Source: a virus | IMG/VR virus record: IMGVR_UViG_3300028840_000184 | Span: 1-28,665 of that record | DNA length: 28,665 nt | Strand: one strand, 5' to 3' | Part shown: in pieces, positions 1 to 28,665 of the stretch | Numbering within the stretch: the first letter of the stretch is position 1 | Layout of the letters: each line of letters opens with the position of its first letter | Translations under genes and position numbers: made by a program | Notes under the pieces: generated by a model | What the model was told of the DNA's origin: nothing | Database searches by the model: none | What the model saw: the letters and a program-made list of their open reading frames with translations, nothing else

Positions 1-65
1 ACCTTTTTCCTTTTGGTCAGCTTGCGAATCTTGCGGATGGCCGTTGTGTAGATGAAATCATTCAT
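1..65 (-). CDS. terL: 5' fragment of large terminase gene (duplicate of the copy ending at 28586)
   Basis: The ATG at 65-63 and the next 20 codons encode the N terminus of the large terminase, cut by the window edge. The same bases occur at 28522-28586 as the start of the full gene. The TerS stop and this start overlap as ATGA, showing that the two terminase genes are adjacent on the circle. It is not a second gene. Confidence 0.9.
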   Translation of the reverse strand, partial: MNDFIYTTAIRKIRKLTKRKK

Positions 66-144
66 TCATCATCACCGAATAATGGCTGTTCACGATGTGT
101 CACTTCGTGCTTCTCGGTCAAGTTGTTCAGACGTTGTGTGATGC
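1..144. repeat. left copy of 144-bp terminal direct repeat
   Basis: The first 144 bases are identical to the last 144 bases of the window. The repeat covers the first codons of the large terminase gene and the last codons of the small terminase gene, both on the minus strand. The simplest reading is an assembly overlap from a circular or circularly permuted molecule of 28521 bp; a genuine short terminal repeat of the virion DNA is possible but less likely because it sits inside genes. Confidence 0.95.
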
Positions 145-469
145 TTGTGTTGTAGATGCCGGTCATGCCGCCTTCAATCTGGTCCTGTCGGATGCTTTTG
201 CGTATACGCGAACAGATAGTGCAATATTTGTCATAGCTGCCATTTGTATTGGCAAAATAATGCTCAAGACCTTCAATGATGCCTTCATTTGCGACATAGT
301 TCTCAAAGCCTTCCATCGTCAATGGTTTCTGAAGTTCACGATGCACAGTTATTGCTTTCGGACCAATGAAATCCTTTACAGTTATCGGATGGTCCTTTGT
401 GTGTGCAGCATAGTCAAGGAACAGCTGCCACATCTTCTCTGGTGTTTCAATGTACTTCTTCTTTGCCAT
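62..469 (-). CDS. terS: terminase small subunit, P22 gp3-like (GP3_package family)
   Basis: This 135-residue protein should recognise phage DNA and recruit the large terminase for packaging. The pattern matches the P22 gp3-like family: an N-terminal MWQLFLDYA segment, the central PLTMEGFENYV, and the C-terminal signature DQIEGGMTGIYNTSITQRLNNL (residues about 95-116), followed by an acidic tail. Length is usual for the family. The stop overlaps the terL start by 4 bp across the window join, and the start overlaps the stop of a 58-codon upstream gene (TAATG). The neighbour and the family signature agree, so I am confident of the role, although the DNA site it binds cannot be told. Confidence 0.88.
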   Translation of the reverse strand: MAKKKYIETPEKMWQLFLDYAAHTKDHPITVKDFIGPKAITVHRELQKPLTMEGFENYVANEGIIEGLEHYFANTNGSYDKYCTICSRIRKSIRQDQIEGGMTGIYNTSITQRLNNLTEKHEVTHREQPLFGDDE

Positions 470-645
470 TACTTCTTGAAGTTTCTCAATGCTTCCTGTG
501 GCGTGTTGCCGACACCTTCCTTGAAGTTGCCTTCATTGTTCCAATACCTGTTGGCATCTTCTCGTTTGAATGCGTGCCACTTCATTGTGTAGGTGTTGTG
601 TGTGATATACACGCCATAATTCTCATGGTTCTTATTCTCCTTCAT
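469..645 (-). CDS. small conserved-looking protein of 58 residues, unknown function
   Basis: An open frame of 58 codons starts MKENKNHENY and ends EALRNFKK. Both ends are locked into the operon: its ATG overlaps the upstream stop (ATGA at 645-642) and its TAA overlaps the TerS start (TAATG at 471-467). The protein has an aromatic, strand-like core (GVYITHNTYTMKWHAF) and a C-terminal TPQEALRNF helix, a layout that loosely resembles HicB-like small folds, but I do not recognise a family. Because it directly precedes terS it may be cotranslated with the packaging genes. Function unknown; existence well supported by coupling. Confidence 0.72.
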   Translation of the reverse strand: MKENKNHENYGVYITHNTYTMKWHAFKREDANRYWNNEGNFKEGVGNTPQEALRNFKK

Positions 646-896
646 TTCTTCCTTCTTCTCTTTGGTCTTGGCTTTGGCTTATTTTCTTCAGCGAACTTCA
701 GCATCACACGTGCCATTGTCTGTGCAGAATTGCCACAGGAGAAGCATACACGTGCATTGCCGTGAATGGCCTTGTAGGTTTCTTCATATGCTTTAACTTC
801 AGTCTTAGTCATTTTTCCGCTGAACCTTCTGGCTGCCATCATTTCAAGTTGTGCCGTTCGTTCAGTTATAAATAGCAAAATGTCCTTTTTGTCCAT
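642..896 (-). CDS. small basic protein with a CxxC pair, unknown function
   Basis: The 84-residue product starts MDKKDILLFITERTAQLEMM, carries CFSCGN at about residues 52-57, and ends in a lysine/arginine/proline-rich tail (KPKPRPKRRRKK). One CxxC pair is not enough for a full zinc site, so a dimeric or partial metal site is only a possibility; the basic tail suggests nucleic-acid binding. It is coupled on both sides: TAATG with the upstream gene and ATGA with the 58-codon gene downstream. I do not recognise a family. Confidence 0.7.
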   Translation of the reverse strand: MDKKDILLFITERTAQLEMMAARRFSGKMTKTEVKAYEETYKAIHGNARVCFSCGNSAQTMARVMLKFAEENKPKPRPKRRRKK

Positions 897-1090
897 TAGT
901 CAGTTTGATCAATTAATTGTTCACTTGCAGGTTCAACGCAGAAACCGCAGGTCTGTTTGTCCTGTTGAATTTCATCGAAGCATTTGAGAAATGCATCTCT
1001 TGATACTTCGTGTAACTGGTTAACGGTTGCTATGTGTGTCTTTGGAAACAACTCCATAGCCCTAGCTTCTGCTTGTTCTCTTGTTTTCAT
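896..1090 (-). CDS. small protein with C-terminal CxxC, unknown function
   Basis: The 64-residue product begins MKTREQAEARAMELFPKTH and contains CGFC near residue 49, with a predicted helical N-terminal half. It overlaps the upstream gene by ATGA and the downstream gene by TAATG, so it sits firmly in the operon. A stretch of 39 bases of this gene (993-1031) has a degenerate copy at 1517-1555, which suggests a past duplication. No family recognised. Confidence 0.68.
   Translation of the reverse strand: MKTREQAEARAMELFPKTHIATVNQLHEVSRDAFLKCFDEIQQDKQTCGFCVEPASEQLIDQTD
993..1031 (-). repeat. parent copy of a 39-bp duplicated segment inside a small gene
   Basis: This segment encodes ATVNQLHEVSRDA in the 64-residue gene at 896-1090. 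It matches 1517-1555 at 35 of 39 positions by direct comparison. Confidence 0.75.
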
Positions 1091-1320
1091 TCGTAAGTCT
1101 CTTTGTAGTATTGTTCTGATTCTAATTGTCTACTCGCTTTGTAATCGCTTTTACCTCTGTAATAACCCATCTTAATCTGCTCCCGTTCCGTTTCGAGTAG
1201 GTTCATTTCCTTGATGTCATCTAAAACCATCTTCAATAAATACTCAATTGAGGGAGATTTGGTTTTTTTAGCCTCTTTTTCGTACTTATCAATCAACTGT
1301 TGCATAGCTGTCTTTTTCAT
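1087..1320 (-). CDS. small charged, helical protein, unknown function
   Basis: A 77-residue protein rich in lysine, glutamate and tyrosine, begins MKKTAMQQLIDKYEKEAKK and has no cysteines or membrane segment; it looks mostly helical. The start is preceded by GAGAGAAG, the purine leader seen before several early genes, and follows the non-coding stretch with inverted repeats at 1321-1429. Its stop overlaps the next gene (ATGA). The DNA here is richer in A and T than the virion genes. No family recognised. Confidence 0.65.
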   Translation of the reverse strand: MKKTAMQQLIDKYEKEAKKTKSPSIEYLLKMVLDDIKEMNLLETEREQIKMGYYRGKSDYKASRQLESEQYYKETYE

Positions 1321-1429
1321 CTTCTCTCAATTAGTGTGCTATAACGCACGATTCAACTTAATTCTATCTCAATTCTCAATTCGCGATTCGCAAAGTGCGT
1401 TAAACCGCACAACCTGTACTAAATAACAT
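1321..1429 (-). promoter_or_regulatory. AT-rich non-coding stretch with two GTGC-type inverted repeats
   Basis: Two short inverted repeats share the core GTGC/GCAC: 1395-1410 has GTGCG and CGCAC arms of 5 bp around TTAAAC, and 1336-1349 has GTGC and GCAC arms around TATAAC. Between them lie repeats of the type AATTGAGA. The block separates a tiny possible membrane peptide from the operon that leads into terS, so an operator or a transcript-processing site is plausible. I see no good TAnnTTTG promoter in it. Confidence 0.4.
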
Positions 1430-1513
1430 TTAGTCAAAATTTTCTCCGTTCAATATTCTAACGACATAAATCAACAGCAACATAATAAAACAGAATAGAA
1501 TCACATCATCCAT
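1430..1513 (-). CDS. possible 27-residue membrane peptide
   Basis: An ATG at 1513 opens a 27-codon frame (MDDVILFCFIMLLLIYVV then RILNGENFD) with one strongly hydrophobic segment of about 16 residues followed by a positive residue, as in single-pass phage micropeptides. There is no upstream Shine-Dalgarno site and the frame starts just beside the relic duplication at 1517-1555. The hydrophobic pattern is the only support; it could be chance. Confidence 0.35.
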   Translation of the reverse strand: MDDVILFCFIMLLLIYVVRILNGENFD

Positions 1514-1516
1514 GTC

Positions 1517-1555
1517 GCATCTCTTGAAACTTCGTGTAACTGATTAACAGTCGCT
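1517..1555 (-). pseudogene. degenerate copy of 993-1031, relic of a duplicated small gene
   Basis: Thirty-five of 39 bases match 993-1031 in the same orientation, and the frame still reads ATVNQLHEVSRDA, but it follows a TAA and has no start, so it cannot make the protein. It looks like the trace of a partial tandem duplication or of recombination between related small-gene cassettes. Confidence 0.6.
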
Positions 1556-1567
1556 TAATTCGCAATG

Positions 1568-1735
1568 TTACTGTTCGCTTTGCCCTACAACAGCCGGTAT
1601 AGTTAATTTTTTAACTAACTCTATTGCTACTCTTTCAAAGTCTGTTTCAAATAAAGCTATGTGTTTTCCATGTCCTTGTACATCTACTTCTACACTTGCT
1701 TTTCTTAATATTTCTTTTATTTCTATAAGTTCCAT
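1568..1735 (-). CDS. small protein of 55 residues, unknown function
   Basis: The frame starts with ATG at 1735 (MELIEIKEILRKASVEVDVQ) and ends VVGQSEQ. It alternates helix- and strand-like segments with balanced charge, as expected of a folded small protein, and its codons are notably A/T-ending. It lies between the 42-codon gene upstream and the tiny membrane peptide downstream and does not overlap either. No family recognised; supported by amino-acid composition and strand consistency only. Confidence 0.5.
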   Translation of the reverse strand: MELIEIKEILRKASVEVDVQGHGKHIALFETDFERVAIELVKKLTIPAVVGQSEQ

Positions 1736-1827
1736 GATTCATTTATTTTTATCCTTTAAAAAACTAACCATACCCAACGTTGTGCTTCAATAATGACACA
1801 TTAACACCAATTCAACCCGTTAGTGTA
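1736..1827. other. non-coding gap with a short palindrome
   Basis: About 90 bases without a credible frame. It contains TAATG-ACA-CATTA (5-bp arms) near 1793-1805 and a poly-A-like leader in front of the 55-codon gene. I see no clear promoter. Confidence 0.4.
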
Positions 1828-1956
1828 TCACTTCTGATTGGAATTATTGTTTAAAATTTCCAATCTTTCAATTGACCGAACTATTGAATCAACCTTTCGC
1901 GCTATCTTCTTAGCCTTCAGCTTGTGACCATTCAATTTGACAATCTTGCTGCTCAT
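1828..1956 (-). CDS. small basic protein of 42 residues, unknown function
   Basis: The ATG at 1956 overlaps the stop of the upstream membrane-protein gene (ATGA), and the frame runs 42 codons (MSSKIVKLNGHKLKAKKIAR...NNNSNQK). It is strongly basic and helical in character, so nucleic-acid or protein binding is possible. The coupling to the upstream gene is the main support for its reality. Confidence 0.55.
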   Translation of the reverse strand: MSSKIVKLNGHKLKAKKIARKVDSIVRSIERLEILNNNSNQK

Positions 1957-2225
1957 GGCATCCAGAAGATTCTAAATATGTACAGTATCCGTTCAAACAA
2001 CACGGCCATCAATGCCACCTGGACAGATGGCCAGACAGCTTCAGTTGTTGCTGCTCCAACAGCCAATCCAATCCAGAATGATAGACACAGCGAACAATCG
2101 AATGGCTTAATGCTTGCCCATTCGTCAATGTTCATCCATTGTTTAATGTACGTCTGAATGCTTATCACTTCGATTAGAAGTGATGCGATGACCGCTGCTG
2201 ATACAGCGTTGTAAAATAATTCCAT
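1953..2225 (-). CDS. small membrane protein with C-x2-C-x2-FW motif (DUF1360-like)
   Basis: The 90-residue product has a hydrophobic N-terminal segment (residues 5-25), the motif FDCSLCLSFWIGLAVG near residues 42-57 at the head of a second membrane segment, and a third hydrophobic stretch towards the C terminus. The CxxC-x-x-FW arrangement recalls the DUF1360 family of phage and bacterial membrane proteins of unknown function. The start codon lies 83 bp inside the end of the sigma-like gene, a long overlap. Downstream it is coupled to a 42-codon gene. Confidence 0.65.
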   Translation of the reverse strand: MELFYNAVSAAVIASLLIEVISIQTYIKQWMNIDEWASIKPFDCSLCLSFWIGLAVGAATTEAVWPSVQVALMAVLFERILYIFRIFWMP

Positions 2226-2724
2226 AGTAATCTTCCTTTAGTTGGTCCAATGTTCTACGGACCGAGTTGCCAATTGATTTGAATGGAATGTCTACCTTTT
2301 TGGAAACTTTCCGATAACTTCCTTCCTGGAGCCACAACCGCAGCACTTCCTTGTCATACCAATGATAGCTGTCCAACAATGCTTCGATGATCATCATGTC
2401 ATCTTCCTGGTCCCAATCGTAACCATCGGCATCATCGGCAATGTCAGGAATCTCTGTGCTGTGTGCGAATAGGCCATGCTTTCGTGCGAATGTAGACCTT
2501 GGTGATGTTGCCATTGTCATCATGGTGCGAACTACGTAGTAACGCAGATAGCCACCATCATTGACCTTTTCCCATTTCTGTTCATCCATTTCCAGAATGA
2601 CCATTGCAGCTTCCTGGATAAGGTCATCAGCAAACCTGTGACAAATGCGAACTGCAAGTTCACGCAGTTCATCATCTGCCAACAGGTCAATTGCTGCTTG
2701 TCGTTTAGAATGGCAGGTCATCAT
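2143..2724 (-). CDS. sigma-70-like / helix-turn-helix regulator
   Basis: From ATG at 2724 the protein has 193 residues. Residues 25-85 (FADDLIQEA, GYLRYYVVRTMM, STFARKHG) resemble sigma region 2, with DDLIQE at the usual place, and residues 118-165 (WYDKEVLRLWLQEGSYRKVS, then IPFKSIGNSVRRTLDQL) look like a region 4 helix-turn-helix. Phage proteins of this kind are often annotated as sigma factors and may steer host RNA polymerase to late genes. The frame is open further upstream, but that would overlap the whole of the SSB-like gene end; the ATGATG at 2724 inside that gene is the natural start. The last 27 residues overlap the next gene in another frame. Confidence 0.65.
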   Translation of the reverse strand: MMTCHSKRQAAIDLLADDELRELAVRICHRFADDLIQEAAMVILEMDEQKWEKVNDGGYLRYYVVRTMMTMATSPRSTFARKHGLFAHSTEIPDIADDADGYDWDQEDDMMIIEALLDSYHWYDKEVLRLWLQEGSYRKVSKKVDIPFKSIGNSVRRTLDQLKEDYYGIILQRCISSGHRITSNRSDKHSDVH

Positions 2725-3034: not shown

Positions 3035-3691
3035 TCAGAATAATCTTTGTTGCGCTTGGTGTTGCTTCAATCGTTTCATTGCTGCATCAAAGTATTCCTT
3101 GTCAAGTTCGCAGGCTGTCAAGTCAAAACCTAAGTTGTGGCAAGCTATGGCAATACTTCCGGAACCAAGATGCGTGTCAAGTATTTTGTCACCTTCTTTT
3201 GCGTAGTTCATCAAAAGCCATTCGTAAAGTTTAACGGGCTTTTGTGTTGGGTGGATTCTTTCTTCAACTTTTTGATTTTTTGGCCCCTGCCTAAATCCAC
3301 ACCACGTGTATCTGTATATTTTTGCTGCTCTTTTAAATGAAGTAAAGGCAAATTCCCCATCGCTAAAATCTTGTGCACCAGTGTCTTTATCCCAAAAAAT
3401 CCATCCCATGCTTGGCGGTATATGTTCTACCATGTAATTGCCTCCCCAAATAATCTGATTTTTAGAAACTCTAAATAATTCGGAAAAGTAAATTTTATCT
3501 GGTATTGTTGAATCCATACCTGCAAATGGTTTATACTTTCTTGCTTTCCATCTGCCTCCAGTTCTTTTTTCGTTATTGCCACCATGTTCACCAATCCCGT
3601 AAGGAGGGTCAACAATAGCCAAATCGAACGCATTATCAGGCATCTTAGCCATTGCATCCATGCAGTCCATGTTTGTTATCTGAATACCCAT
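3035..3691 (-). CDS. DNA (adenine-N6 or cytosine-N4) methyltransferase
   Basis: Starting at the ATG that overlaps the upstream stop as TGATG (3691), the protein has 218 residues. Catalytic motif IV is DPPY at residues 28-31; HPTQKPVKL (147-155) and LDTHLGSGS (171-179) correspond to motifs X and I. The order motif IV before motif I is that of beta-class enzymes. Motif I has H and S where F and T are common, a conservative variant. No restriction gene is adjacent, so it is an orphan enzyme that may protect phage DNA from host restriction. Its DNA is richer in A/T than neighbours: by hand count 36 G/C of 120 at 3421-3540, suggesting separate acquisition. Confidence 0.9.
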   Translation of the reverse strand: MGIQITNMDCMDAMAKMPDNAFDLAIVDPPYGIGEHGGNNEKRTGGRWKARKYKPFAGMDSTIPDKIYFSELFRVSKNQIIWGGNYMVEHIPPSMGWIFWDKDTGAQDFSDGEFAFTSFKRAAKIYRYTWCGFRQGPKNQKVEERIHPTQKPVKLYEWLLMNYAKEGDKILDTHLGSGSIAIACHNLGFDLTACELDKEYFDAAMKRLKQHQAQQRLF

Positions 3692-4251
3692 CAAACAATA
3701 CCATTTGAACGGAACCATCTGGTCACAGTCTGTTCATATCTGTTGTCTTCCTGCATCAACGCAAATCTACCTTGTGGCTTTTCGTTCGGCAATGCCTTGA
3801 CTTCATTCCTTTCAAGTAGGTATTGGTAAAGTAATCCCCACATTGGAAATTCTGGCAATCTGCCATGTTCCTGAAGGTAGTTGATGGTCCATTGATACAT
3901 GAATGGTGCATCAATAGGATCACTTGCTGCTTCCAATTGTTTCGGTTGGAATTTTGGCTGTGATGCCTTGCTTCTTTCTGTCTGCTGAAATGCTCGTAGA
4001 ACTTCACCAACAACCTTTGGTGACAATTGCTGACCATAGGTTGACAATGTCAATGGCTTGTTGTTCAAAGATAGACTTCCGGATGCGGCCTTCTGAAATG
4101 CTGTGACCAACTTGAAGTCATCAATGTGCGGAAATTCAGCATCCACGAATCTTGCGATGATGTCCATCAGCATCTGACCATCTGGTGACCTGTCGAATTG
4201 TTTACAGCCAACCAATAAAGGCAGCTTGTGAATAGTTGCTTGTTGAATCAT
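3691..4251 (-). CDS. replication-module protein of unknown function
   Basis: The 186-residue protein contains no motif I can name. A segment near residues 30-80 (MDIIARFVDAEFP, FKLVTAFQKAASGSL, LSTYGQQLSPKVVGEVLRAF) is helical and has the look of a conserved domain found beside DUF6291 proteins in Bacteroidota phages. The start is preceded by CACACAGAGAGAACAC, the purine-rich leader common to the early genes. It is placed between the DUF6291 protein and the methyltransferase, so a replication or DNA-processing role is likely by context only. Confidence 0.6.
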   Translation of the reverse strand: MIQQATIHKLPLLVGCKQFDRSPDGQMLMDIIARFVDAEFPHIDDFKLVTAFQKAASGSLSLNNKPLTLSTYGQQLSPKVVGEVLRAFQQTERSKASQPKFQPKQLEAASDPIDAPFMYQWTINYLQEHGRLPEFPMWGLLYQYLLERNEVKALPNEKPQGRFALMQEDNRYEQTVTRWFRSNGIV

Positions 4252-8149: not shown

Positions 8150-8377
8150 CTAATTAACGGACAGCCACGTGTCATCATCATCTGACTGTGTGCTGACTAT
8201 TCGCAGATACATTTCTTCTGTGTTGACCAACGTGTTGTGATAAGCAGACATTTCATCTTGAATGGCCTTGTTCCTTTCGCTGATTCTCCACAGAATGTAA
8301 GCTGTGACCATCAGCCAGAAGATGACAATGAACAGCAGGACCATCGCAATGATCAGCAAATTTATGATAGTCTGCAT
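8150..8377 (-). CDS. small single-pass membrane protein, last gene of the late block
   Basis: The 75-residue protein starts MQTIINLLIIAMVLLFIVIF, with one long hydrophobic segment (about 4-30) and a charged helical C-terminal half ending DDDDTWLSVN. A GTG three bases earlier could also start it; the ATG overlapping the upstream stop (TGATG) is preferred. It may be a second holin, antiholin or membrane-anchored accessory; no family recognised. Confidence 0.6.
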   Translation of the reverse strand: MQTIINLLIIAMVLLFIVIFWLMVTAYILWRISERNKAIQDEMSAYHNTLVNTEEMYLRIVSTQSDDDDTWLSVN

Positions 8378-9402
8378 CACCTTACTTTGCCTTTGATGAT
8401 TCGCAAGTTATCAACTTCAAAGTCACCGTTGTCATCAACGCGAATGATGGCGAAACCATGATTCCATTTGTTCACGGGCATATATCCAGGATGCAGTTCA
8501 CAGAGACACCCTGTGGACCATGTTGTCACAACCTTGCCATCAAGATTGGATTCTGAATGTTCAGATGTTTGATGATTATGTCCACAGATAACTGATGCCT
8601 TTGCTCTCATGTAGTAGCCACGTGCAGGATTGACAGGTGAAAAAACTGACCTTCCAAATTCGTGACCATGCATAATAGAGAGCTTACCTGCCTTTATCAC
8701 ACGTTTGTCTTGAATCAGTTCACAACCAAGTTCACCAAATCGTAGCAATTGGTCCATCGTGAAGTCTGCTGTGCCAATCAGTTCTGGTGCCTTAGTTCTC
8801 AGATACGCCTCATACCTTTCTTCGTGATTGCCTAACTTGAAATAGAATGGCACACCATCAAATTCCTTCCGGAACACTTTCAACAGTTGCCGTGTTGCTT
8901 CCAATTCTTCAGCGAATGACCTTTTTCTTGGATCACGTTCATAACGCGACAATGCATAGCAATCAACCGTGTCACCATTGAAGACAATGGCATTCACCTT
9001 TTCTTGCTTGCCATATTCAATTGCTTTTGTAATGGCATCAATATTATGATAAGGAACATGAATGTCTGACAACAACAGAATTCTTGTGGCTGCTTTCGGC
9101 AACACGAATGGTTCCCATTCAGATTCATCTGATTCTGGAAGACCAAATGGATTGGCAATTCCTAATGCTTTCGCTTGCTGTGCCTTCTCTGTTGTCATGT
9201 GTTTCTTATCTTTCAAAGTTGCCCTATCCTTATCACCTGTCTGTCCGCGATAGTATCTGATAATTTTTCTTACATTCTCCACATCTATAAATGCAGATTT
9301 GTTCCTTTTGTATATCAGTTTCGCCAATGATAGTGATGGCAGATGTGACCAATGCTTCAGATATTCCTGGACGATTTCGCCCTTGATGGATTGCTTGTTC
9401 AT
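8377..9402 (-). CDS. calcineurin-like metallophosphoesterase
   Basis: The 341-residue protein has a helical N-terminal part (1-55) resembling a DNA-binding helix-turn-helix, a linker, then all metallophosphoesterase motifs: LLSDIHVPYH (D113, H115), NGDTVD (142-147), GNHEER (191-196), MHGHEF (H245, H247) and GHNHQTS (274-280). Family members hydrolyse phosphoesters in nucleotides, proteins or DNA ends with two metal ions. Phages carry such enzymes at varied places; here it follows lysis genes. Substrate unknown. It is coupled to both neighbours (ATGA upstream, TGATG downstream). Confidence 0.88.
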   Translation of the reverse strand: MNKQSIKGEIVQEYLKHWSHLPSLSLAKLIYKRNKSAFIDVENVRKIIRYYRGQTGDKDRATLKDKKHMTTEKAQQAKALGIANPFGLPESDESEWEPFVLPKAATRILLLSDIHVPYHNIDAITKAIEYGKQEKVNAIVFNGDTVDCYALSRYERDPRKRSFAEELEATRQLLKVFRKEFDGVPFYFKLGNHEERYEAYLRTKAPELIGTADFTMDQLLRFGELGCELIQDKRVIKAGKLSIMHGHEFGRSVFSPVNPARGYYMRAKASVICGHNHQTSEHSESNLDGKVVTTWSTGCLCELHPGYMPVNKWNHGFAIIRVDDNGDFEVDNLRIIKGKVR

Positions 9403-12638: not shown

Positions 12639-13207
12639 TAGTAGTCAATGTATCCGTCTCTGTACTTGTCCTGTAAACTTCGTGACCTGTATCTGTTTCC
12701 AAGGAAGATGCCTGTTGAATAGACATCTTTCTCTGGTCTTATCACATCAAGTCCAGAATCTGGTGATTGGTAAGCAGGATAATCTGATGCATTTTCGCAC
12801 AGGAATCTGACCAATCGCTCTGTGTACCATTCAGCCTTGTCACGATATTTCTGACTGATGAAATTGATTTCATCCAAGGAAGATGTGCTTGCGTTTTCAG
12901 ATGACTGCTGCATCAAGCCTTTATTCAAGAACTTGTATGAAATAGCTGTTGGTGCTTCGCTTTCAATCCAATATCGCAGACATGGTTGAATGTAGTCATC
13001 CAACAATGTTTGGTTTGCAGTTGTCAAGCTGTTGCCAATGATCTGTGTCTTGATTTCATCGTACAATGTACTGCCTAATTTTGGCTGCACATAGATGTCC
13101 TGGCACATGATGATGACAGGACGAAGATACTTGAAGTCAATATTCTCGTGCAGCAATGTGCTGTCCTTCAGATAGCTTTCTGATATGAATAATACAGGTG
13201 TTGCCAT
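12638..13207 (-). CDS. head-tail connector (neck) protein, DUF6712-like
   Basis: The 189-residue protein has the pattern of the DUF6712 neck family: an N-terminal SESYLKDSTLLHENIDFKYL, then VIIMCQDIYVQPKLGSTLYD, TLLDDYIQPCLRYWIESEAP and a C-terminal helix. Located directly after the portal (TGATG overlap), it likely forms the ring between portal and tail. The C-terminal 40 residues are rich in R, Y and D. Confidence 0.72.
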   Translation of the reverse strand: MATPVLFISESYLKDSTLLHENIDFKYLRPVIIMCQDIYVQPKLGSTLYDEIKTQIIGNSLTTANQTLLDDYIQPCLRYWIESEAPTAISYKFLNKGLMQQSSENASTSSLDEINFISQKYRDKAEWYTERLVRFLCENASDYPAYQSPDSGLDVIRPEKDVYSTGIFLGNRYRSRSLQDKYRDGYIDY

Positions 13208-15345
13208 CAGTTTGCTTGCTTAGTAATTAGAACTTGACGCCATTCGTGTCTGCAATGGATTGATTTGCCCCACCATCCACCGCCACGATTCCAGACATTT
13301 CGGCCTTCTTGCATTCCCAATCTTTGGATTTCTTCCAAGGTCCACACTTTGCCTGTGTAATTCGGACCAATTTCTTGGACATCTTCTGAACGCCAATCTG
13401 ATGGTCTGCTTTCACGCAGCAAATCAATGCAGAAATCACGTGATGTTGGAATGGTCAATGATTCGCCTTTCTGCTTCAGTTCTGGCCGTAGGTCATAAAC
13501 GTAACCGATTCCAAATTCTTCTTCCACAGGTTCGATGTCATCAATGATTCTCTTGCCTTCATCAGTCACATCAACAACACGTTGTGTGCTGCCTGCGATT
13601 TCCTTGATTACAATGTTGATGGCATTGGCTTCATTCAATGTCTGAATGGCCGCCATCAGCCTTTCATTGGTGATCTGCAAACTTCTTGCAATTGCAAGGA
13701 ATGGTGTTGATGGTTCCTTTACCAAGATGTCCAGGATTGCTGATTCAATTGGTCCGATTTCGCTGAACCAATATTTCAGACATTCAGATTCACGAATGTG
13801 TGCAGTTTCAAAACTATCAAATTTGAATCTTCGGTCAGCCACAACTTTATGGTCAAAGCTGCCTGTGTTTCGTAGGTATTCAAGAACACGTTCATCATCT
13901 TCTTTGCTATCGGATGATTTGCAGCAGATTCTTTGTGAATTGAATGCAGACACTTCCGGCAATGGTTCACCATTGATGGTTGCCGCTGCTTTCGCAGGTT
14001 CGAACCCGTACAGTTCAACCAAGATTGCAATGGCAGAATTGGCATCCACAACACCTTCCTTCACATTCTGAAGTAGCGTGATGATTCCGCTAACGCCACC
14101 AACACTTCCTTTCAATGCAGCTTGTGCATCCTTGGTTTTACTGTCAACAGATTCTGTTCCTTCTTCTTTTTCTACAGCCGACAATCCAACAGCTTCGCGA
14201 ATTTCATCTTCAGTCATCACAGATATGATGGTGCTTTCAGAGAATTGAACGCTGATTGGTTCCGTGTCGCTGATGGTCAGCCTTCCTTCCAATCCTTGCA
14301 ATGCGGCCAGGTCATTGAATGTGCGCTCAATGAATTGTTGCCTTGCATTGACATACGTGTTCTGAAATAATTCAAAGCTGTCAACCAATTGGTTGCGTGA
14401 ACTGAATATTCCTTCTTCCTTTATTCCGAACAATGCAGGATCACTTATCTGATGGCCTGCATACAATTCCTGTTGAATCGTCTTGTTCAATAGGTCGAAT
14501 CGCTTGTCAAAGTCATTGCTGTTCAGTTGCTGAATTTCAGCAGACCGGTCACGTGAATCGGAAAAGTTCAGAAGAATGCTGTTGGCATTGTCCGTGCCTG
14601 TGAACTTGGCTTTCACCATTCTTTCAATTTCCTGCTGCTCGCTTTCGGTCGGAATGCCAGAATTGAAATTCAAAAGTGTCCCGGCCATGAAACCATTGGA
14701 AATGCCCTTGTTGAAATAGTCACTTACCTTTCTGTCAAGGTCAATGTAATTGATGGCACCAAGATATGATGGCAATGGATAGTATTGACAGTTAGGCTGA
14801 TAGCTTTTTACATACAGCAACTGCTTGCCGCCTGGTTCCTTCCAATTGAATGCTTCTATCTTTTCAACTTCTGGATTGTACTTACTCCAATCATCAGAAT
14901 AGTAGTAACAATAGCCATCATCAGACACACGATACTTTGCGAAGTCTGCGTGATAGATGGCTGCTATCTTTTCACCAATGCTGTCATAGATAACTTCCAG
15001 AGCATAGCCGCCATAAAGTTCCAAGTCATGTGCAACTTTCACCAAGATGTCATCCAAAGATTCATATGGATTCGGATGCTTCACAAACTGCTCCATCTTG
15101 GCCTTCATGACAGTTGTCATTCCATCTGTGTCAATGGACCATCCACGGCCACAAACATAGTCACGTTTACTGTTGATGATGGCATGATGCTTTGCGCTGT
15201 TCCTGTACAATTCCAGAAGAAAGTCAGGATAGCGATTTTTGTATTCGCCTTCAGAGCCATACAGAATCCAATCCTTGCCACGCTGTTCCTTAAATTCTGG
15301 AACAACATTGGCTTCAAAGTTCAATATGCTTAGACTATTCGCCAT
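13207..15345 (-). CDS. portal protein with winged-helix and MuF-like C-terminal extension
   Basis: From ATG at 15345 the protein has 712 residues (a GTG at 15369 would add eight). The N-terminal 390 residues have portal features: YRNSAKHHAIINSKRDYVCG, the segment VAHDLELYGGYALEVIYD, and GHQISDPALFGIKEEGIFSS. After an acidic linker, residues about 545-620 (FLAIARSLQITNERLMAAIQ and on to VTDEGKRII) resemble a winged helix. The last 70 residues (YTGKVWTLEEIQRLGMQEGR, WNRGGGWW, HCRHEWRQ) resemble the C-terminal zinc-type tail of MuF/minor head proteins. So portal and internal head-protein parts appear fused. At 712 residues it is longer than the common 400-550. Confidence 0.82.
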   Translation of the reverse strand: MANSLSILNFEANVVPEFKEQRGKDWILYGSEGEYKNRYPDFLLELYRNSAKHHAIINSKRDYVCGRGWSIDTDGMTTVMKAKMEQFVKHPNPYESLDDILVKVAHDLELYGGYALEVIYDSIGEKIAAIYHADFAKYRVSDDGYCYYYSDDWSKYNPEVEKIEAFNWKEPGGKQLLYVKSYQPNCQYYPLPSYLGAINYIDLDRKVSDYFNKGISNGFMAGTLLNFNSGIPTESEQQEIERMVKAKFTGTDNANSILLNFSDSRDRSAEIQQLNSNDFDKRFDLLNKTIQQELYAGHQISDPALFGIKEEGIFSSRNQLVDSFELFQNTYVNARQQFIERTFNDLAALQGLEGRLTISDTEPISVQFSESTIISVMTEDEIREAVGLSAVEKEEGTESVDSKTKDAQAALKGSVGGVSGIITLLQNVKEGVVDANSAIAILVELYGFEPAKAAATINGEPLPEVSAFNSQRICCKSSDSKEDDERVLEYLRNTGSFDHKVVADRRFKFDSFETAHIRESECLKYWFSEIGPIESAILDILVKEPSTPFLAIARSLQITNERLMAAIQTLNEANAINIVIKEIAGSTQRVVDVTDEGKRIIDDIEPVEEEFGIGYVYDLRPELKQKGESLTIPTSRDFCIDLLRESRPSDWRSEDVQEIGPNYTGKVWTLEEIQRLGMQEGRNVWNRGGGWWGKSIHCRHEWRQVLITKQAN

Positions 15346-15727
15346 AGACTGTGTATGTTTGGTTGCCACCTGTGTACACTTCAGATGGTGCAGGTGTGCC
15401 GATGACCTTCACAATTCCCTGTTCCAATAAGGCCAGACCTGTTGGATCAAGGTTTGATGATGAACTGTTGGCATAGATATAATAACGCCATTGGCCATCA
15501 TTGCCCAACTTCACTTCACCCGCTGTTGGTGTTGGTGTTCCGCTTCCAACTTCCGTGATTTCGAACTTGTTGAATCTGTTCGGAAATGTTGATGTGTCCT
15601 GTGCCACGCAATATTGCACACCTTCTGTTGTGTCACTTCGCAATTCGAAAAGATAGTAAGTTGCTGTGCCATACTCGGATAAGGTCACAGCCACTTCATT
15701 AGCCGTATTTCGTTCGATGTTTATCAA
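15335..15727 (-). CDS. virion-associated beta protein, TTG start
   Basis: The 130-residue protein begins MINIERNTANEVAVTLSEYG and reads as strands throughout, ending YTGGNQTYTVYGE. The N-terminal pattern N-E-V-x-x-TLSE followed by YYLFEL is one I associate with small structural proteins of Bacteroidota phages. The start is TTG at 15727, overlapping the upstream stop as TTGA, since no ATG is near. It precedes the portal gene. Confidence 0.6.
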   Translation of the reverse strand: MINIERNTANEVAVTLSEYGTATYYLFELRSDTTEGVQYCVAQDTSTFPNRFNKFEITEVGSGTPTPTAGEVKLGNDGQWRYYIYANSSSSNLDPTGLALLEQGIVKVIGTPAPSEVYTGGNQTYTVYGE

Positions 15728-27422: not shown

Positions 27423-28586
27423 TCACCTGACTGCGTAGGTACCGGTTGACATTGATTTGCTCATGATGGAATAGCGTGCTGCATCAATCGCGTGATTTGA
27501 ATGGTCCACAGGAATGTTCAATGATGCACCTGTCTTGTCTGTTTGCCAGACGTAGCCACGCAGTTCCTTGATCAGATTGGTTGATGATGATGTCACCATC
27601 AATGGCACCTGTTGCATTTGGTTGATGCCATACATGATGCTGTCCTTCCCTTTGACTGCTCCACGGATTCTGTGGCCATACCTTCGCAGTTCATCAATGC
27701 TTTTCGGTTCTGAAGAATCTGCAATGATTTCAATGCCTTTGAATCCATCCAGGACATTGCTGATGTCCTTGTTGCTCATTCCTGTTGCATAGTGAATTTC
27801 ATGCATCCATAGCTTGCCATCTGCTTGCCGAACTTCCACAATGGCCGTTGCATCATTGGTATAGCCCCAATCCAATCCAATGCATCGCCATCTGTAGTTG
27901 TCTGGCAGTTGGTCACATTGGTTCCAATTATCGAACACTACACCTTGCAATGCTCCGATTCTTCCAAGGCCATAGACATTCCACCAATTTTGCCAATAGG
28001 CTGAATGCTTTGCTTTTTCTTCTGCTTTTTCAATGTCCTTCCGAATCGTGTCCGGCAATGCTTCATTGTCCTTGAATGTCAAAATCAGATGTTCAGAATC
28101 ATCTTCTTGCAGCACTTCGGTGTGCGCCCAAAATTCCATCGTTGGATTGAAGTCAATGAAGATTTCATCAGATGTTCTGATGGCCAATTGATAGTATGAT
28201 TCAAATGGAATGTTGTTGGCTTCGTTGACATACAAGATGTTCCTTCTGGCACCACGTAATCGTGCCTCCTGGTCTGCGCTAAAGAATTCGATATAGGAGC
28301 CATTAGCAAATGTGTATGTCAGCAATGACCTGTTCCATCTGGAATCATTGTATCTGCCTGTGATCTGCATCACCTTCAGAAAATCCTTCATGGCACCACG
28401 CCTAAGATGTGGAACCGATTCCGACACAACAGATATTTCAAGGCCATCAATTCTGGCTGCTCTGTCAATCAATACCGGAAGAATGCCGAATGTTTTACCG
28501 GCAGATGTTCCACCTTGGATGACCTTTTTCCTTTTGGTCAGCTTGCGAATCTTGCGGATGGCCGTTGTGTAGATGAAATCATTCAT
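27423..28586 (-). CDS. terL: terminase large subunit (PBSX type)
   Basis: The 387-residue protein is the packaging ATPase and nuclease. Walker A is GGTSAGKT at residues 25-32; Walker B is ILYVNEAN with E122 as the candidate catalytic glutamate (about 117-124). The C-terminal nuclease has IGLDWGYTNDATAI (D near 240), IIADSSEPKSIDEL (D near 295) and HAIDAARYS (D near 367). The set fits Terminase_3/PBSX-type TerL. It overlaps the TerS stop by ATGA across the window join and is followed after five bases by a small zinc-binding gene. Confidence 0.95.
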   Translation of the reverse strand: MNDFIYTTAIRKIRKLTKRKKVIQGGTSAGKTFGILPVLIDRAARIDGLEISVVSESVPHLRRGAMKDFLKVMQITGRYNDSRWNRSLLTYTFANGSYIEFFSADQEARLRGARRNILYVNEANNIPFESYYQLAIRTSDEIFIDFNPTMEFWAHTEVLQEDDSEHLILTFKDNEALPDTIRKDIEKAEEKAKHSAYWQNWWNVYGLGRIGALQGVVFDNWNQCDQLPDNYRWRCIGLDWGYTNDATAIVEVRQADGKLWMHEIHYATGMSNKDISNVLDGFKGIEIIADSSEPKSIDELRRYGHRIRGAVKGKDSIMYGINQMQQVPLMVTSSSTNLIKELRGYVWQTDKTGASLNIPVDHSNHAIDAARYSIMSKSMSTGTYAVR

Positions 28587-28665
28587 TCATCATCACCGAA
28601 TAATGGCTGTTCACGATGTGTCACTTCGTGCTTCTCGGTCAAGTTGTTCAGACGTTGTGTGATGC
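28522..28665. repeat. right copy of 144-bp terminal direct repeat
   Basis: Identical to 1-144. It closes the circle: joining 28521 to 1 restores both terminase genes without loss. Confidence 0.95.
28583..28665 (-). CDS. terS: 3' fragment of small terminase gene (duplicate of 62-144)
   Basis: This stretch encodes the last 26 residues of TerS (ending QPLFGDDE) in the repeated part of the window. The gene continues at 145 in the unique part. It is not a second gene. Confidence 0.9.
   Translation of the reverse strand, partial: ITQRLNNLTEKHEVTHREQPLFGDDE

Follow-up and report, generated by a model that had tools for sequence, protein, structure and literature searches.

We analyzed a stretch of 28,665 nucleotides (hereafter, the window), the IMG/VR virus contig IMGVR_UViG_3300028840_000184, the main genes of which lie on the minus strand. 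Because an exact 144-nt direct repeat is present at both ends of the record (1-144 and 28522-28665), it is probably a complete, circularly permuted phage genome of about 28.5 kb. Between the membrane protein gene h90 and the terminase small subunit gene terS, seven minus-strand frames, 27-84 codons long, fill positions 469-1956 (Table 1). The first-pass annotation had placed at least seven small frames here, three or four of them below 60 codons, and four of the seven are indeed below that length. The couplings that it described can be read from the sequence as ATGA at h90/g42, d77/c64, and b84/a58, and as TAATG at c64/b84 and a58/terS. Its statement that no function is recognizable also stands, with none of the seven proteins assignable to a family of Pfam, PHROG, NCBIfam, or PADLOC.

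Table 1 Features of the small-gene locus and its surroundings in the window
Feature	Position	Strand	Remarks
terS (terminase small subunit, left flank)	62-469	-	phrog_606, E 1e-8
a58 (58-aa core small gene)	469-645	-	TAATG coupling to terS; alignment A5
b84 (84-aa core small gene)	642-896	-	helical, CxxC, basic tail
c64 (64-aa mobile accessory gene)	896-1090	-	MKTREQAEAR...QTCGFCVEP; 39 viral loci
d77 (77-aa mobile accessory gene)	1087-1320	-	MKKTAMQ...ETEREQIEEAY...YYKDTY; 13 viral loci
Leader of d77 (109 nt, conserved)	1321-1429	-	two palindromes; model R1
e27 (27-aa microprotein)	1430-1513	-	single TM; four distinct sequences
Relic of c64-like gene (39 nt)	1517-1555	-	ATVNQLHEVSRDA; fused to e27 start
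f55 (55-aa accessory gene)	1568-1735	-	IPAVVGQSEQ tail; 76% homologue L082
Noncoding (92 nt)	1736-1827	-	only in the window phage among close relatives; no relative aligns
g42 (42-aa basic small gene)	1828-1956	-	ATGA coupling to h90
h90 (90-aa membrane protein, right flank)	1953-2225	-	motif KPFDCxxCLSFWIG
Sigma-factor-like protein	2143-2706	-	TIGR02937, E 1.5e-7, under the curated cut-off
Portal	13207-15369	-	
TerL	27423-28586	-	follows terS across the 144-nt terminal repeat

Structure-based and remote searches gave little more. A Pfam scan of the seven frames and h90 found no HTH domain above cut-off, the b84 match to ROS_MUCR (E 0.03) falling under it. The AF2 model of b84 (pLDDT 81) had no fold match in the PDB (best E 4.7), d77 was predicted to be helical (pLDDT 73, pTM 0.47), and a PDB sequence search with these two proteins returned no meaningful match. 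The membrane protein h90 is kept in every close relative covering that stretch, and its CxxC motif also occurs in a 77-aa protein of two further loci (L040/L043; hhalign E 1e-5). The host is likely a member of Bacteroidota, since the distant DNA matches listed for the first 6 kb, all of which lie within a methyltransferase region, are mostly to phages of Flavobacterium and other Flavobacteriia, together with 14 Streptococcus phage records. The DNA methyltransferase gene itself (3035-3718) is variable: it is absent in most close relatives while its neighbors are conserved, and is present in L006/L008 (70%), L010 (61%), and L012/L014 (59%).

To compare the locus among phages, viral contigs were scanned with TerS, which yielded 80 related loci; in 19, TerS was at least 80% identical over its full length. 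In the 12 close relatives that were aligned, both flanks are unbroken at 76-92% identity (terS-a58-b84 on one side; h90 and the sigma-factor-like gene, in most cases with g42, on the other). Most of the 12 lack c64, e27, and f55, as well as d77 with its preceding gap and the 92 nt that precede f55. For example, c64 was found in two of the 12, at differing places, and other genes stand in at the exchange position of the window: a 29-aa TM protein (tm29) in L018-L020 and, in L011, L012, L014, and L015, a 55-aa Cys-rich protein (zn55), preceded by a shorter c64 beside g42 and followed by e27. Given that the flanks align while the contents differ, these alignments indicate that gene swapping takes place between g42 and b84 (about 897-1827). 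The first-pass annotation had regarded the whole cluster as a hot spot of small accessory genes; this description fits the g42-b84 interval and does not extend to a58 and b84. Virtually every close relative retains these two (b84 in all that cover its place, a58 in all except L006/L008, which keep d77 and c64), and the same comparison identifies them as a stable core beside terS. One loss has left a trace. Positions 1517-1555 repeat 39 nt of c64 (993-1031) at 90% identity, and comparison with L011, in which the shorter c64 and zn55 are present, shows them to be a remnant of the shorter c64 after a deletion through the end of zn55, with a short ATG common to both sides at the junction. Between b84 and a58, a 49-aa frame (MPAIKCDNGKWKWGTKGSC...) overlapping the extended C-terminus of b84 was seen as a further small gain in L010 (4477-5001).

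In a different explanation, b84 and a58, and with them the rest of the cluster, would serve terS as packaging accessories and would not be host-takeover genes. Nearly every close relative has both genes next to terS and coupled to it, and distant relatives carry a similar small helical gene with CxxC near terS. However, homology of b84 to that WWCxxC protein, which is collinear with it, was rejected as not significant (hhalign E 0.15 between the two CxxC groups), L006/L008 do without a58 even though their terS is 88% identical, and a packaging role leaves c64, d77, e27, and f55 unexplained. We regard this explanation as possible for the cluster, if on balance unlikely.

The exchanged genes recur in phages with little else in common. 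Among 30 records tested that carry relatives of d77 or c64, a TerL of 98-99% identity occurs in just three, all of the close group; the TerL of the others is 57%, 44%, or about 32% identical or has no match, and none of the d77/c64 records tested outside the close group had a portal match. A pool of at least seven small families (d77, c64, MRPTLHEYV, a 43-aa TM protein, and three others) is represented by combinations that differ among records. A search of 84,980 bacterial and archaeal genomes gave a single d77 locus (L197), a 4.4-kb contig of a MAG that holds four other members of the pool and is, by inference, probably a phage fragment. A tblastn search with d77, c64, b84, and zn55 against 50,697 phage records found no match. 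Many of the loci are fragments, so that an absence there is no proof, and several come from the same few metagenome sample series, so that copies of the pool genes and of the leader described below are not all independent. Read together, the protein comparisons indicate that d77 and c64 are part of this pool, whose families are reassorted between phages that have unrelated packaging genes. In other phages, we also observed, upstream of d77 relatives, small proteins with the DNA-binding domain of the DnaA C-terminus (Bac_DnaA_C, E 7e-13 and 5e-14; L131:900-1358 and L136:875-1219).

The conserved leader of d77 contains two similar palindromes, IR1 at 1336-1349 (GTGC-N6-GCAC, GTGCGTTATAGCAC) and IR2 at 1396-1411 (GTGCG-N6-CGCAC, minus strand GTGCGGTTTAACGCAC). 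Viral contigs were scanned with IR1 as the pattern, and a sequence model (R1) was then built from ten copies. R1 recovered further copies in loci for which similarity to the c64 protein had been the sole basis of retrieval (L147, L154, L155, L158, and L172); five of these copies keep the stem with a changed loop, and a second L158 copy has one stem mismatch. In total, there are 16 distinct leader copies with at least five gene types behind them (d77, c64, MRPTLHEYV, a 60-aa Zn protein, and a metallophosphoesterase), always on the coding strand with 2-29 nt to the start codon. None was present in 487 kb of control sequence (52 loci). The offset of IR2 is near-constant in 9 of the 16 copies. In the close relative L005, the leader and c64 lie elsewhere, before the metallophosphoesterase gene, and a second leader copy precedes that gene (L159, same contig). 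Leader copies before the metallophosphoesterase are found at L158:2498-2547 and in L159, L160, and L161; the counterpart of this gene in the window (8377-9402) has no leader. As the metallophosphoesterase is a conserved backbone gene, the leader is not confined to accessory genes.

We considered two other roles for this element. It could be a recombination end, attC-like or from another mobile element, that moves small genes as cassettes and is no promoter, given that its two palindromes are inverted copies of one another, that it is placed at cassette boundaries, and that leader-gene units appear at differing loci. However, the leader is found only upstream of genes, with none at the far end of a moved unit; L125 and L126 have lost the left palindrome and keep the right part and the gene; and no integrase, including tyrosine integrases, was recognized among the window proteins scanned (a subset of the frames). 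These points make a recombination end improbable. An RNA hairpin formed by the right palindrome, IR1, and governing translation of the next gene is about equally improbable: the GTGC/GCAC stem is kept in 96.9% of cells with a variable loop, but it is just 4 bp long and no pair shows a compensatory change, and DNA binding accounts equally for conservation of a palindrome. In the absence of covariation, the hairpin is not favored over a DNA site. An integron attC site had separately been considered for the 1736-1827 gap, prompted by CTAACGGGTTG...CAACGTTGGGTATGGTTAG, and was rejected: 1755-1830 folds no better than shuffled sequences (z 0.09 and 0.13), and the half-site CAACGTTGGGTATGG occurs in other viral contigs only without its partner half-site, with exact matches that look like chance.

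Substitution patterns in the relatives show which of the frames behave as genes. Third codon positions take most of the changes in a58, b84, g42, and e27 (14/7/41, 23/14/48, 11/3/22, and 8/4/12 at positions 1/2/3, respectively), and pooled dN/dS is 0.09 for a58 (14 distinct relatives), 0.17 for b84, 0.22 for g42 (nine distinct sequences), and 0.22 for e27 (four sequences of 27 codons), similar to h90 (0.21). These values indicate that all four, even e27 at 27 codons, are real genes under purifying selection. The stand-in zn55, at 0.06, is likewise under strong selection. For the exchanged genes, dN/dS was 0.37 in c64 (three sequences) and 0.73 in d77 (only two, quite divergent), and the case is backed by their recurrence as protein families, with both ends of d77 conserved (MKKTAMQ and YYKDTY) around a variable middle (alignment A3). 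The weakest case is f55, which has a single homologue (76%) in one other phage; matches at 35-37% (L083-L085) sit in unrelated GC-rich DNA and were taken as spurious. Its tail is common, largely at the DNA level, to otherwise different small ORFs with differing N-termini (L122-L124). That the seven frames are mostly spurious or decaying sequence, as the one relic and the absence of f55 from close relatives (together with its lack of the C-terminal extension, with cysteine pairs in L122 and L124, of the tail-sharing ORFs) might suggest, is highly improbable and largely refuted for a58, b84, g42, e27, c64, and d77 by these dN/dS values (0.09-0.22 in four frames) and by family conservation. As a side observation, the 24-nt stretch encoding PVVGQSEQ or AVVGQSEQ is conserved at the DNA level in ORFs of L122, L123, and L124 with different N- and C-termini, in the manner of a reused module, and the peptide motif also occurs in L125 (880-1134).

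We therefore favor, with a probability of roughly 0.7, the explanation that accessory genes from a shared pool are exchanged at this cluster, with the leader as a putative promoter/operator. The sigma-like gene, h90, and g42 make up one half of a conserved skeleton and b84, a58, and terS the other, and closely related phages gain and lose small genes between g42 and b84. Capture may proceed through phage recombination of the usual kind and through short homologies, as suggested at the c64 relic. The palindromes would be bound by a dimeric regulator of phage or host origin, and the leader could thus give newly captured genes ready-made expression, probably early and repressible, with no further adaptation. 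The swapped genes may act on the host or its defenses, whereas b84 and a58 would have a stable role, perhaps linked to packaging. No sequence, profile, or fold match links any protein of the cluster to anti-defense or host takeover; by analogy with known systems, an anti-defense function of the swapped genes is nevertheless plausible, and more so because their pool is phage-restricted and reassorting and because they share a palindromic leader. More tentatively, and with considerable doubt, the leader might mark a community-wide set of anti-defense or host-takeover genes in Bacteroidota phages. If so, it could itself be used as a finder of such genes and would be a bacterial-phage counterpart to the common early regulatory sequence of archaeal viruses.

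The nearest anatomical parallels to the leader are acr-aca promoters and the small early genes of SIRV2. In acr-aca operons, the promoter contains a single inverted repeat or two similar ones (PMC9410906), and the locus is similar in having small phage genes after a promoter-sized region (here a putative promoter) with two similar inverted repeats. In contrast, no Aca-type HTH protein was recognized in the cluster, and its proteins are not known to inhibit CRISPR; without a recognized HTH gene there, we do not claim membership in this class. In the archaeal virus SIRV2, small early genes, acrs included, share one regulatory sequence (PMC11065993), which resembles the unrelated small genes found here behind a highly similar upstream sequence; the present case differs in concerning a bacterial, probably Bacteroidota, tailed phage and in having the leader also before one backbone gene. 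The antiviral hot spots of P2-like phages and P4-like satellites (PMC9122126) likewise hold accessory genes at one position that vary by phage, whereas the genes here are single, small, and phage-restricted, with no known family and no recognizable defense systems. Similarly, the phage small proteins reviewed in PMC11323111 are phage-encoded and <100 aa, as here, but the present families are unrecognized in PHROGs, Pfam, and NCBIfam. With conserved flanks and differing contents in the 12 relatives, and contents common to otherwise unrelated phages, we classify the locus as a phage accessory-gene hot spot whose gene families and leader are undescribed.

The distinction between core and exchanged genes, the common gene pool, and the leader are new relative to the first-pass annotation. 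Annotation tends to overlook genes under 60-80 codons; the locus provides comparative evidence for real genes down to 27 codons and separates a stable part from an exchanged part, and the phage families d77 and c64 as well as the leader motif are searchable. An exchange site beside a packaging gene is a place to seek host-handling genes, a candidate function here, and if the leader is an early promoter/operator, it offers a sequence-only route to candidate anti-defense genes where accessory genes have no known relatives. Elsewhere in the genome, the portal of L005 is 97% identical to that of the window in an alignment that skips window residues 407-477, and its open frame has 665 aa vs 720 aa in the window, an in-frame block difference.
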